NCBI RefSeq assembly: GCF_013391475.1
Contig: NZ_JACBAZ010000012.1
Coordinates: 1-64,000 of the forward strand
Direction of reading: 5' to 3'
Source of the DNA: Oceaniferula marina
GTDB lineage: Bacteria > Verrucomicrobiota > Verrucomicrobiia > Verrucomicrobiales > Akkermansiaceae
DNA: 64,000 nucleotides
Below the pieces are notes generated by a model. That model was not told where the DNA came from. It made no database searches and worked only from the letters and a program-made list of their open reading frames with translations. A program made the translations under genes and the position numbers. How positions within the stretch are numbered: the first letter of the stretch is position 1; each line of letters begins with the position of its first letter. Positions 1,463-44,072 of the stretch are shown one piece after another.

Positions 1463-3967
1463 CTATTGCACCGGAAACAGCTCCAGACAAAGCACTTCGA
1501 ATGGTTGCAGTTTAAAAGTATACTCACCAGACAGAACATCCTCTTTGAATGTCTGATCCTCATAGGCATTTTTTACTTTAAACTTCACCGCCTGACCTTC
1601 CGGCACCTCTAGAACATCCGTAAGGTTAACAGTCAGCTCACTCGGCTTATCCGATGAGTTCCGTAGCGTGATGATACTCTTTCCAGGACTCCAAGATGCC
1701 CAACCGTAAACACCAAGCTTAAGAGGGTCACCACCCACCCAGTGGGTATCGACGAGGATCTTTTCATTTTTCTTTGCCCACTTGGCGGCCTCAGCCACTT
1801 CGTCCCATGCCTTGTCGGTCATCATCTCCGGCGTCAGGTAAAGCTCGAGCAGGTTGGCTCCGGTGCCGAAATAAGACCGGGCAGCATTCTTCATATTCAC
1901 ACCCGCACCAGCTCGATCCATTTCTCCCGCTTGATAATGACGCCCAACCACCAAACCGTGATGCATCACCGAGTTAAGAGGGTAAAGTGGTGCCTGTTGA
2001 ACAAACTTGGAATAGCAGCCCCAATCACGGAACGTAAGCCATTGCTCACGCTTGTCACCCACCCCCATCCAAGCCACATCTCCCGTGCCGGTGCGCCAGG
2101 TGCAATCAATATGATTCAGCCAGAATGGCGACGGCCAGGTGCCGACAGTGACATTAATAAACAACTCGGGATCGTGTTTTTTCAGCTCACGACCACACTG
2201 AATCAGCGACATAAAGTGAGGGCTCACCCCACTGCCCGCCTTGTCCCACTTGTAGTAGTTCACCTGGTGGTCTTTCATGAACCCGAGGCATTTCTCATAA
2301 AACCACTTGTAGTAGGCTGGCTGGGAAAGATCCATGGTCGATTCAATCAACCCCATTTTTTTCGCATGCGCCGTCCTTTCATTCGCACCACTGTATCCAC
2401 CCAGGGGTGAAATCCAGACACCCAGATTACTTTTTGATTTTCGGGCTTCAGCGGAAACCTCATCAAACCCGTTAGGAAACCTCTTCCGGTTGTATTCCCA
2501 CAAGCCAGCACCGTAATCATCCCAGCCATCGTCCATCACAAAAGAATCCAGTATCACCCCACGCTTCACCGTGAGTTCTCGATAATAATCTTTGATCACT
2601 TGGGTAAACTCTTCCCGGTTAGGGGCAAAATCATACCAACAGTTATAATGAAGCAACTGATGATAAGGAGTCGCACGTTCACGCTCGAGATAGTAGTTAA
2701 AGGCACGGCGGAGCTGCCCCTTCGGGTAAACTCCCATCACTGATTTAAAATCATACTTGGTGCCCTTTTTAATGGGTAAATGACAAGGGAAACCACTACG
2801 GAAGCTGTCACCGTCAAAGTAGTTGGCAGTGAATGGCATCTCAACCCCAAAAAACATCGAATCGCTCGCAACAGGGCTACCCGGAACCGAGCCAATCTGA
2901 CGGGAGTGAGGCACGCTGCCCTCGATAAACTGAAGCCCATACAGCGTCTGCGGCTTGGTGCTCGCCAAGGTATAGCTCTGGCTGATGTAGTTCGAGCCAT
3001 CACGAAGCTCTGCCGACCAGCGCACGTGAATGCCAGTCTTGGCATGTTTCAGAGTGGCTGTAATTGCTTTTCCACCCTTAATCTCAAGTTCCTTAACCGG
3101 ACTACTCAGGGTGAATGCCTCGGATGTCAGGTCACAGGCTAAAGATGCTGTGGCTTTTTTATTCACTAACTTTTCACCTGCCGGGCTCAGAATCGTGAAC
3201 TGCCCTTCAGCCCGAATATTCACAAGAGCAAAGGTTCCATCGTCAAATCGAAGTGTCAGGCCCGGCCCCCAGCTCAAACCTTTGTCCGTGCCCTTTTTCA
3301 CTTGGCAGCTGATACGCTGCCAATCTTTAGGAACCTTGTATTCAGCGAATGTCGCGCTGTTAGCATGGGCCTTGATCGTAATCAGTTCATTGGAGATCTC
3401 CAAGCTCGTACCATCCCGCTTCGATTTGTGAACGGACTTTGGTTTTGCGGTAAGGTCATTGATCGCTCTCTGGCCATCCAACACTTGGACCTGCTGGAAC
3501 TCACAGGTTCCCAACTCACCGGCGGAACTGTAATCCTTGGCCTGACCATCACTGCTGGTTTTTCCCACACGGATGGATTCAAGTTTTCCGGAAAAACCTG
3601 CCAGTGGTAAACTAGCGAGCGTTTCCCAGCTCTTGCCGTCGTTCGAGATTTGCGCTTGAATTTCCTGACCGGTTCTCCGCATACCCAGATAGATCCTCTC
3701 CGGGTCCTGAGCTTGCTCTTGGGTCGCGATACCAAATAACTCCTTTCCCGGGCGAAATAGCTCAGAGCCGCTCTTATCTTGAAAAGCAGGGCCACGCAAC
3801 TTGCCTCCGTCCACTTTCCAAGTCGCCTTTAGTAGGTTATTCTGAAGAACATAGTTCTTGGCAGAACTTTGCAAACTCGCCTTGTTTGGCGCTTCACCGG
3901 GGTAAGGCACAGCAATAACGGGAGAAATCAAACAAGCTCCAAGTAGGAGGATTTTTCTAAAAATCAT
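1463..3967 (-). CDS. GH36-like (clan GH-D) alpha-glycosidase
   Basis: This 834-aa secreted protein has a signal peptide (MIFRKILLLGACLISPVIA). Residues about 80-165 look like a concanavalin-type insert. The C-terminal half is a clan-D (beta/alpha)8 barrel with M-D-D-G-W-D-D at 478-484, the nucleophile motif Y-Y-K-W-D ending at D575 and a likely acid/base Asp in T-G-T-G-D at 630. Related proteins are often annotated as alpha-galactosidase or, misleadingly, as enterotoxin. It differs clearly from the classical GH36 enzyme at 13920-16568, so the substrate may not be a simple alpha-galactoside. It lies 34 bp upstream of the DUF3472 gene on the same strand, and the two are probably co-transcribed. 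Confidence 0.8.
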   Translation of the reverse strand: MIFRKILLLGACLISPVIAVPYPGEAPNKASLQSSAKNYVLQNNLLKATWKVDGGKLRGPAFQDKSGSELFRPGKELFGIATQEQAQDPERIYLGMRRTGQEIQAQISNDGKSWETLASLPLAGFSGKLESIRVGKTSSDGQAKDYSSAGELGTCEFQQVQVLDGQRAINDLTAKPKSVHKSKRDGTSLEISNELITIKAHANSATFAEYKVPKDWQRISCQVKKGTDKGLSWGPGLTLRFDDGTFALVNIRAEGQFTILSPAGEKLVNKKATASLACDLTSEAFTLSSPVKELEIKGGKAITATLKHAKTGIHVRWSAELRDGSNYISQSYTLASTKPQTLYGLQFIEGSVPHSRQIGSVPGSPVASDSMFFGVEMPFTANYFDGDSFRSGFPCHLPIKKGTKYDFKSVMGVYPKGQLRRAFNYYLERERATPYHQLLHYNCWYDFAPNREEFTQVIKDYYRELTVKRGVILDSFVMDDGWDDYGAGLWEYNRKRFPNGFDEVSAEARKSKSNLGVWISPLGGYSGANERTAHAKKMGLIESTMDLSQPAYYKWFYEKCLGFMKDHQVNYYKWDKAGSGVSPHFMSLIQCGRELKKHDPELFINVTVGTWPSPFWLNHIDCTWRTGTGDVAWMGVGDKREQWLTFRDWGCYSKFVQQAPLYPLNSVMHHGLVVGRHYQAGEMDRAGAGVNMKNAARSYFGTGANLLELYLTPEMMTDKAWDEVAEAAKWAKKNEKILVDTHWVGGDPLKLGVYGWASWSPGKSIITLRNSSDKPSELTVNLTDVLEVPEGQAVKFKVKNAYEDQTFKEDVLSGEYTFKLQPFEVLCLELFPVQ

Positions 3968-42447: not shown

Positions 42448-43131
42448 ATGAACATCCATTCCACCATCACGGCCATCACCCTGGCCCTGACCGTAGCCTC
42501 GGCCCAGGCAAGAACCTGGACCAGCGCCGACGGCGCCAAAACCTTCGAAGGAGAATACGTCAGCCATACCGATCTCTCCGTCACCGTCATCAAAAACGGC
42601 CGTAAAGTAACCTTCAAACAGGATCTCATCTCCGAAGCAGACCGAACCTGGATCAAGGAAGAAGCAAAAAAAGCGGCTGAAGCCACCGAAGAATCCACCA
42701 GCTTGGACGATCAGGTGATCGGCAAAAAAATCAAAGGGAAAACCGTCCGGACCGGCGACAAAAAATTCATCACCGAAGATACCACCAAGGTCCCTCAATA
42801 CTACTTCCTCTATTTTTCAGCCAGCTGGTGAGGCCCCTGTAAAACCCACGCTCCACAGTTGGTGGAGTATTACAACAAAAGCATCGCCGACAACGACAAG
42901 GTGGAATTCCTCCACGTCAGTCAGGATGACAGCCGGCGCGACGCCCTCAACTGGGCTCGCTCAGCCAAATTCCCCTGGCTCACCGTGCTCAGTTCCAAAT
43001 CCAAAACCTCGGGGCTGGCGAAATACGATTCGGGCACTCCCAGCTACATCCTGATCGACAAAGATGGCAACGTCCTCGCCAGCGATGAGAAAAAGTGCAT
43101 CAAAAAAATCAAGGAACTCACCGGTAAATAG
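42448..43131 (+). CDS. Candidate selenoprotein: periplasmic SHD1-thioredoxin (WUGPC) protein with in-frame TGA
   Basis: One reading frame of 227 codons from ATG 42448 to TAG 43129-43131 is interrupted only by TGA at 42829-42831 (codon 128). The order is: signal peptide (MNIHSTITAITLALTVASAQA), an SHD1-like small beta domain (about 22-72, R-T-W-T-S-A-D-G-A-K-T-F-E), a linker, and a tryparedoxin/nucleoredoxin-type thioredoxin fold (Y-F-L-Y-F-S-A-S-W, then TGA, then G-P-C-K-T-H-A-P-Q-L-V-E-Y-Y-N). In this family the motif is W-C-[GP]-P-C; the TGA replaces exactly the first, nucleophilic Cys, leaving resolving C131. Sequence after the TGA keeps family character to the end (G-T-P-S-Y-I-L-I-D-K-D-G-N-V). 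A hairpin with bacterial SECIS geometry follows. Selenocysteine is the best reading; a recent nonsense mutation or sequencing error is the alternative. Confidence 0.8.
42829..42868 (+). promoter_or_regulatory. Selenocysteine TGA with bacterial SECIS-like hairpin
   Basis: TGA (42829-42831) is followed, 19 nt later, by stem CTCCAC (42851-42856) / GTGGAG (42862-42867), extended by a G-T pair at 42850/42868. The loop is AGTTG. The apical loop starts 25 nt after TGA and has G at its second position. Both fit the published bacterial SECIS pattern (loop 16-37 nt from TGA, G among the first two loop bases). The stem also codes conserved residues, so chance cannot be excluded. Confidence 0.65.
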
Positions 43132-43337
43132 CGGCCAGCCGGAAAGCCTCCCGCACCGATCCGCCTTGTCCGAGCCCTCGCCCGGGCACTCCAAACCTCT
43201 GAATCGCACCCCCGTAAAATTCAGATTGAATATTTTTCTTTGCTCCCCCGTCTCACCCGGCACGCGTGCCACGGTGGACATTCCCTGCTGGAGTTTTCGA
43301 CCGAGCGCGCTATCTTAACGTTTATCTCATTAACTCC

Positions 43338-44072
43338 ATGAAACGAGCCACCCTACATCGACTCCTATCAGCCATCGCCGTTCTGGCTTCCCTTGCCCTC
43401 GCATCTCCCAGCTTCGCTGCGCCAAGAAAGTCACTGCTCGATAACGACCCGGAAGTGGTCTACATCAACGAGCACCTCGATCGCACCATCCACCTGATGG
43501 TGGCGCAACCCGCCGCCGCTTATTCTTCGAAAAACGGAGGACGCAAACTCGGAACCTTCCCGGCAAACACCAAAGTCGAACTCCTCGCCATCGGAGGAGA
43601 AAATGCCTACCGGGTCAAAGGCAAAACCAAAAACAGCACCGTCTCAGGCTGGGTGTCTCCAAAGCTCCTCGCATCCAAAGACAAAAACTTCATCGCCAAC
43701 CTGAAGCAACTCTACAAACGTCAGATGACGGTCAAGGAGCTGATCGAAAATCAGGATGTCGCCATCGGTATGACTCTCGATGAAGTTAAGCTGTCTCTGG
43801 GAGAGCCGACTAAAACCGAAGTCAAACAAACCCGCAAGGGCTCATCCGGCAAATGGGAATACATCATCACGGAAGAAGAAAAACACTACCAAACCATCAG
43901 AGATCCACGCACGGGTCGCACCTATCGCCAGGTTACCCATATCACCACCGAGGAACGCGAACGCACCACCCTTGAGTTCGAAGACGACGTGGTCACCTCC
44001 GTCACCCGTAAGCGGGATAACGGTCCAGGGAAGGTCCGCATCATCCCTGTGCCCATCGTCTGGGGCTGGTAA
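43338..44072 (+). CDS. Secreted SH3-like / BamE-like protein
   Basis: This 244-aa exported protein (signal M-K-R-A-T-L-H-R-L-L-S-A-I-A-V-L-A-S-L-A-L-A) has a bacterial SH3-type region at about 50-110 (A-A-A-Y-S-S-K-N-G-G-R-K-L-G, V-S-G-W-V-S-P-K-L-L). After it comes a segment starting I-G-M-T-L-D-E-V-K-L-S-L-G-E-P-T (about 143), which is the SmpA/OmlA/BamE-type motif, and a strand-rich Lys/Arg/Glu end. The exact role is unknown; envelope or peptidoglycan association is likely. It follows the selenoprotein candidate on the same strand after 206 bp, and the fold-back repeat copy 2 begins 2 bp after its stop. Confidence 0.7.
   Translation: MKRATLHRLLSAIAVLASLALASPSFAAPRKSLLDNDPEVVYINEHLDRTIHLMVAQPAAAYSSKNGGRKLGTFPANTKVELLAIGGENAYRVKGKTKNSTVSGWVSPKLLASKDKNFIANLKQLYKRQMTVKELIENQDVAIGMTLDEVKLSLGEPTKTEVKQTRKGSSGKWEYIITEEEKHYQTIRDPRTGRTYRQVTHITTEERERTTLEFEDDVVTSVTRKRDNGPGKVRIIPVPIVWGW

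Follow-up and report, generated by a model that had tools for sequence, protein, structure and literature searches.

Thioredoxin-like selenoproteins with selenocysteine (Sec) in a UxxC motif are known as a broad kind, as described in the accessible text of PMC13188914, PMC9312934 and PMC1088965. One of them, a thiol-disulfide isomerase-like selenoprotein (PF13905/cd02966, UxxC), was first reported from the Sargasso Sea (PMC1088965), and the family appears again in the 2026 inventory of prokaryotic selenoproteins (PMC13188914) and in a 2022 review (PMC9312934). A Trx-like 1 (COG0526) selenoprotein has also been described (PMC2398784). Selenoproteins have been reported from Planctomycetes (PMC4807772), and in the accessible part of that paper a family of the type presented here was not seen.

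We analysed a stretch of 64,000 nucleotides from Oceaniferula marina (Akkermansiaceae, Verrucomicrobiales; contig NZ_JACBAZ010000012.1, positions 1 to 64,000), hereafter the window, and found in it what is very probably the gene for an exported selenoprotein, in which UGA codon 128 is read as Sec and which acts as a thiol-disulfide oxidoreductase outside the cytoplasm. Like the Sargasso Sea family, the window protein matches Thioredoxin_8, has Sec at the first position of UxxC and has widespread Cys homologues. The descriptions of that family, in the text accessible to us, name neither an SHD1-like N-terminal domain nor a verrucomicrobial family, and the thioredoxin part of the window protein may belong to it, the two being compared by description only.

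Selenoprotein thioredoxins (Trx, PF00085) are small single-domain proteins. They share the UxxC motif and the thioredoxin fold with the window protein, which is matched by PF00085, but the window protein adds an export signal and an N-terminal domain and reaches only 25.8 of 96.8 bits against TIGR01068. The exported thiol-disulfide oxidoreductases ResA, TlpA and DsbE, together with tryparedoxin, share the fold and the best sequence profiles with the window protein; unlike it, they are Cys proteins. The model for TUGYCR motif thioredoxin-fold (seleno)proteins (NF053656) reached 16 of the 100 bits that it requires. The NCBIfam list for the window protein has 11 matches, each below its cut-off, and an existing NCBIfam selenoprotein model was therefore rejected as its identity.

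The main texts of PMC13188914, PMC9312934 and PMC12013277 contain neither SHD1 nor Verrucomicrob-, and Verrucomicrob- is also missing from PMC5029168, PMC1088965 and PMC2398784. In searches on Verrucomicrobia or its genera with selenium, and on SHD1 with thioredoxin, the family appeared in no title or opening of an abstract among the matches listed, subscription papers and supplements lying outside these searches. An earlier reading of the window from its sequence only had proposed a new type of selenoprotein. Because UxxC thioredoxin-like selenoproteins are already known, Sec in a thioredoxin fold is not the new element; the part of the proposal that stands is the architecture, an export signal and SHD1-like domain that we did not find described, together with the lineage-wide family.

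A thioredoxin-fold frame with TGA at the active site

The frame starts with ATG, has 227 codons and ends with TAG at 43129-43131 (Table 1). Codon 128 is its sole internal TGA, with 99 sense codons downstream, and lies in the context FSASW-U-GPCKTHAPQLVEYYN, where the W-U-G-P-C motif of a thioredoxin fold has its first catalytic residue. Frame and translation thus bear out the sequence-only reading, which had described one 227-codon frame with a single TGA in place of the first catalytic Cys. It had also expected an automatic gene caller to split the gene; the list of open reading frames under translation table 11 does cut it in two, a product of 127 aa (42448-42831) and another of 90 aa starting at TTG (42859-43131).

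Table 1. Features of the selenoprotein locus in the window
Feature	Position	Strand	Basis
Coding sequence, 227 residues, predicted Sec at 128	42448..43131	+	Reading frame; homologues with the same single TGA across the protein length
Predicted Sec codon TGA, residue 128, first position of UxxC	42829..42831	+	TGA in 79 homologues, TGC/TGT in 36 Cys forms
Second (resolving) Cys, C131	42838..42840	+	Invariant column in alignments A2 (50 rows) and A3 (24 rows)
Putative N-terminal hydrophobic export signal, residues 1-21	42448..42510	+	Judged by eye from the sequence
SHD1-like small beta domain and helix, residues 22-80	42511..42687	+	Structure model; PF03983 in 8 of 50 members of A2
Thioredoxin-fold domain, residues 84-227, Thioredoxin_8, tryparedoxin/ResA/TlpA-like	42697..43128	+	Profiles, structure model, fold matches
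SECIS-like hairpin in the coding sequence	42850..42868	+	Fold, covariation, codon bias

When the TGA is translated as Cys, Thioredoxin_8 in Pfam matches the second half of the protein at 50.6 bits (cut-off 27), and the AhpC-TSA, Redoxin and Thioredoxin (PF00085) profiles were also above their cut-offs there. The sequence-only reading had thioredoxin sequence continue for 99 codons past the TGA; in the TGA homologues at least 92 codons beyond it are open. In an AlphaFold2 model (mean pLDDT 90.5, pTM 0.73), a small beta domain at residues 22-57 is followed by a helix and then by a thioredoxin fold, in which U128 stands directly before a helix. In the structure library pdb_via, the nearest solved fold was that of a thioredoxin, at Z 14.8; tryparedoxins came at Z about 12-14, ResA-like proteins at Z about 11, and glutathione-peroxidase folds stood lower in the list (Z about 11). 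A profile search of solved structures ranked tryparedoxins and a thioredoxin first. The Pfam score, the W-[CU]-x-x-C motif, the conserved Pro opposite it and the fold all place the protein in the Thioredoxin_8 superfamily. Alignment A2 comprises 50 of 69 sequences (37 TGA and 13 Cys forms); Thioredoxin_8 matched 50 of the 50, W127 and C131 are invariant, and P198, probably the cis-Pro of the domain, is conserved in at least 90%.

The structure matches barely cover residues 1-86, and the N-terminal domain is described here by its predicted strands (22-26, 32-40, 44-49 and 52-57), which a helix follows at 63-80. Pfam SHD1 (PF03983) gave no match to the window protein at E<0.1. It did match 8 of the 50 members of A2 at E<0.01 (best 7.6e-7), the window protein not being one of the eight. 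The earlier description of the protein as SHD1-fused thus has to be softened to SHD1-like. Residues 6-17 of the putative export signal have pLDDT below 50 in the model. Hydrophobic N-termini were also seen by eye in relatives; one relative, as started in our set (L056), is without one.

In the five closest pairs of homologues compared, Ka/Ks after the TGA was 0.013/0.181, 0.017/0.260, 0.030/0.079, 0.017/0.113 and 0.019/0.105, comparisons involving the window gene itself being close to saturation. Upstream, Ka was also below Ks except in one pair (L045/L054, 0.043/0.031). These values demonstrate that purifying selection acts downstream of the TGA.

The genome carries the Sec machinery, and the TGA form tracks selA

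The source genome (88 contigs, 5.07 Mb, 97% complete) contains all four components of the Sec trait above their cut-offs, which answers one of the checks proposed with the sequence-only reading: selA (515 bits, cut-off 268; contig 6), selB (307 bits, cut-off 242; contig 4), selD (375 bits, cut-off 125; contig 1) and a tRNA-Sec (51.7 against an Rfam gathering score of 47; called tRNA-SeC with anticodon tca by ARAGORN; contig 1). The last two lie about 25 kb apart. The selD gene itself (L027 1528, G000 contig 1) has one in-frame TGA, in an N-terminal AAG-U-AAK motif, and by its sequence SelD of this genome appears to be a selenoprotein too.

When the read-through protein was compared with 260 genomes of the family, 248 had some match and 64 had a homologue with in-frame TGA among the listed matches, weaker matches lying outside this tally. 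Homologues with TGA were also found in four other families of the order. A selA match occurred in 8 of 16 genera, and altogether 69 of the 260 genomes had selA above cut-off: 57 of the 64 with a listed TGA homologue vs 12 of the 196 others (Fisher P = 2.5e-37, uncorrected for kinship). The seven exceptions are five genomes of 70-86% completeness, one in which selA lies in two fragments, both below cut-off (G174), and a 96% complete genome without a selA match (G182). The TGA homologue of G182 (L075) has lost the second Cys (U-PSAV) while its frame stays open for 97 codons past the TGA and keeps the hairpin stretch GCTCCACAGTTGGTGAAG; going by its sequence, it may have outlasted a Sec trait that this genome no longer has.

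Sec and Cys alternate at codon 128

From the loci of the family we retained 67 TGA rows and 27 Cys rows, and 20 further loci in other families of the order added 12 TGA and 9 Cys rows. The total at codon 128 is 79 TGA and 36 Cys forms (31 TGC and 5 TGT), the Cys/Sec exchange that had been sought as a check. A stop at this codon was TGA in 79 of 79 retained homologues and never TAA or TAG, and none of these rows has fewer than 92 open codons beyond it. This recurrence of TGA is far beyond chance.

From the family loci we set aside four candidate frames, one being weak and three lacking similarity, and rows with the same sequence around the site were collapsed. Among the 95 loci L030-L124, nine have no retained row: L061-L064 have own-genome matches to the N-terminal part only, L057 was merged with L056, L071 has T before the TGA, L106 offers a pair of TGA frames, of which one has L in front of the TGA and the other is truncated where the stretch ends, the halves of L112 (G235) lie in different frames, and L075, which is also outside alignments A2 and A3, lacks the second Cys. 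Decay elsewhere in the gene was not seen as a rule among close relatives, L112 and L075 being the exceptions. In three of the four genomes whose match lists another stop or a second TGA (G208, G183 and G213), and in G217, the row ends there, 92-97 codons past the Sec codon, which is the natural end of the gene.

Cys forms occur in genomes with and without selA, and four genomes (G305, G275, G296 and G355) have selA together with a Cys form. Cys relatives in genera g2, g6, g8, g14 and g15 of the same family share the layout of N-terminal stretch and thioredoxin domain but have TGC or TGT for TGA, and the AGTT loop motif described below is missing from all 36 Cys forms. The 13 Cys rows of A2 are 26-31% identical to the window protein. 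In the window genome, the thioredoxin part has a single further match among those listed, to a distant Cys protein (L060, 36% over 98 residues).

A tree of 112 thioredoxin domains with the site masked requires a minimum of six changes between Sec and Cys, and well-supported branches make three of these unavoidable; many of its forks are left open because the alignment has only 138 columns. Three Cys forms (L135, L136 and L139) fell among the Sec forms of one family (f2) with modest support (SH-aLRT 84-89) in this unrooted tree, a placement that suggests switches from Sec to Cys in that family.

Two TGA forms depart from the motif, with U-A-S-C (L153 881) and U-V-P-C (L032 1863), and three from the usual hairpin loop, with AGGTT (L050 852 and 1866) and AGGTG (L154 632), showing what motif and hairpin tolerate.

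A hairpin downstream of the TGA is under selection

Bacterial SECIS elements are hairpins just 3' of the UGA whose small apical loop has a G near its start, and by these features we call the hairpin in the window gene SECIS-like. It has 7 bp, six of which (42851-42856 with 42862-42867) form a conserved core, and a 5-nt loop, AGUUG (42857-42861), that begins 25 nt after the TGA and has G at its second position, as the sequence-only reading had described. Folded alone (24 nt), the hairpin is stable, with an energy of -10.6 kcal/mol (z -3.3). In a 45-nt context the energy is ordinary (z -0.5; 53 of 200 shuffles fold equally well), so that the evidence for the hairpin is comparative rather than thermodynamic, and covariation and codon use were tested instead.

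For covariation we used the 64 distinct sequences among the 67 family TGA rows, as 48-nt stretches (set A1), the 12 TGA rows of other families being left outside. The six core pairs were formed in 89.8% of 384 cells, vs 81.0% (sd 0.6) when the 3' letters were shuffled and 35-55% when the partner strand was slid. Five of the six pairs showed double changes, a count reached by 10 of 500 shuffles. There were 25 doubly changed cells (4.2 in shuffles) and the covariation score was 0.223 (0.078 shuffled), neither value being reached in any of 500 shuffles. Of the 64 sequences, 32 lack one of the six pairs and three lack more than one. The hairpin is therefore conserved with compensatory changes among the TGA forms.

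The loop starts with AG in 79 of 79 TGA forms (AGTTG 35, AGTTA 33, AGTTT 8, AGGTT 2, AGGTG 1). The Leu codon in the loop (+10) is TTA or TTG in all 68 TGA forms with Leu there. These two codons account for 15% of the 1207 other Leu codons of the same genes, and in Cys forms for 3 of the 27 at this position. Similarly, Gln in the loop region is encoded by CAG in 75 of 75 cases, against a background of 46%. One Cys form (L139) has the same APQLVE peptide, with the codons GCT CCG CAA CTC GTG GAA. This biased codon use at the loop indicates that the constraint lies on the RNA. Taken together, these data demonstrate that the hairpin is under selection.

Taxonomic range

We scanned one genome per species, 84,980 species in all, with the DNA signature TGGTGA-N6-TGY-N9-GYNCCNCAGTTRGTGR. 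It matched in 66 contigs, vs 0.12 expected by chance with equal base frequencies; since the signature is strict and was built from TGA rows already seen, 66 is a lower bound, and a lack of matches in other groups is no sign of absence there. The titles of 65 of these contigs name Verrucomicrobia, and the remaining one reads only 'Bacterium isolate'. Of the 69 matches, 65 lie in frames that are open for over 60 codons ahead of the site and over 80 beyond it, the other four lying near an end of the available stretch. The genomes of the family, those of other families and the signature contigs overlap and are thus not independent samples. A search of genome contigs with the single protein confirmed no relatives, nor did alignment A4 against viral contigs.

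Cultured strains of five species carry the signature (Roseibacillus persicicus, R. ishigakijimensis, Persicirhabdus sediminis, Rubritalea profundi and Rubritalea marina), and with the gene present in strains from collections the claim is directly testable.

Discussion

The Sec pathway of the genome, the co-occurrence with selA, the exchange of Sec and Cys and the covarying hairpin support the earlier claim of a Sec-containing protein, and Sec is almost certainly inserted at UGA-128. In the mechanism we propose, SelB carrying Sec-tRNA would bind the in-frame hairpin, which starts 18-19 nt downstream, and UGA-128 would for this reason be read as Sec. We are also confident that the product is exported. 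It would consist of the export signal, the SHD1-like N-terminal domain and a thioredoxin fold of the tryparedoxin/ResA/TlpA type, whose CxxC would have become U128-G-P-C131. The selenolate of U128 would attack a disulfide or an oxidised thiol (or a peroxide), C131 would resolve the mixed selenenyl-sulfide, and an electron donor would re-reduce the enzyme. As to the direction of the reaction, we lean towards a reductase rather than an oxidase or peroxidase.

The alternative that survives best accepts the selenoprotein but makes it an exported peroxidase or a disulfide-forming oxidase. Sec favours peroxide chemistry, the AhpC/TSA and Redoxin profiles score above cut-off and glutathione-peroxidase folds are among the structure matches, and yet the protein has a UxxC motif, its nearest matches in sequence and fold are Thioredoxin_8, tryparedoxin and ResA-like proteins, and the resolving Cys is invariant in both alignments; we regard this reading as possible but less probable. 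It is very improbable that the UGA is read through as another amino acid, or is reassigned throughout the genome, without selenium. An in-frame TGA followed by a structured RNA would fit such read-through too, but residue 128 aligns with the catalytic Cys, the whole Sec pathway is present and the TGA forms track selA. Genome-wide reassignment was rejected because TGA ends long frames within the window (9 of the 30 stop-to-stop frames longer than 300 codons, counted on both strands with spurious antisense frames included). That a nonsense mutation or a sequencing error broke an ordinary Cys thioredoxin gene would account for one stop in an otherwise intact frame, for the split in the table-11 list and for a TGA one base away from the TGC/TGT of Cys relatives, but the chance of this is negligible: TGA alone among the stops recurs at this position across many assemblies, including some from cultured strains, which makes a sequencing error untenable, and the selection downstream of the TGA and the covarying hairpin contradict a pseudogene.

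A broader reading can be offered tentatively. Sec-decoding Verrucomicrobiales might possess an expanded, dedicated extracytoplasmic selenium redox system, formed by an exported, tandem-duplicated UxxC family with SHD1-like N-termini. In such a system the N-terminal domain might anchor or target the protein, the hairpin might have fixed a part of the protein sequence (A-P-Q-L-V-E), and several lineages might have changed between Sec and Cys without losing the machinery; we consider this reading possible but less likely than not.

The locus would add a family of exported selenoproteins to an order for which the literature searched holds little on selenium use. Ordinary annotation is expected to end the protein at residue 127, and the active site would be lost. 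The family also offers a clean natural data set on the limits that a coding-region SECIS element sets on codons and residues and on the exchange of Sec and Cys, as exemplified by the Cys relative that has the same peptide without the hairpin codons (L139).

Gene neighbourhood and further TGA frames

In the 66 signature loci each recurrent neighbour was present in at most 14 loci, and those looked at suggested no partner; four example neighbours presumably are, as judged by eye, a dienelactone hydrolase, a tRNA methyltransferase, a short-chain dehydrogenase and a cytidine deaminase, with no evident functional link. The next frame downstream of the window gene (43266-44072, +, 268 aa from GTG) had no Pfam match at E<0.001.

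TGA thioredoxin genes also stand in tandem: one locus (L052) has three in a 3.7-kb stretch, and seven (L045, L047, L050, L054, L107, L108 and L143) have two each. In one neighbouring copy read in the signature loci, a lipoprotein-like N-terminus (MLVSC) replaces the SHD1-like domain. Near one homologue (L037, G240), the minus strand at 2291-3493 has a second, different thioredoxin-like frame with TGA in the motif W-U-G-P-C-R-A-M-Y-P-H, with 293 codons before the TGA and 107 after it. This frame matched AhpC-TSA at 85 bits, with the ResA model below cut-off, and is a candidate for another selenoprotein.
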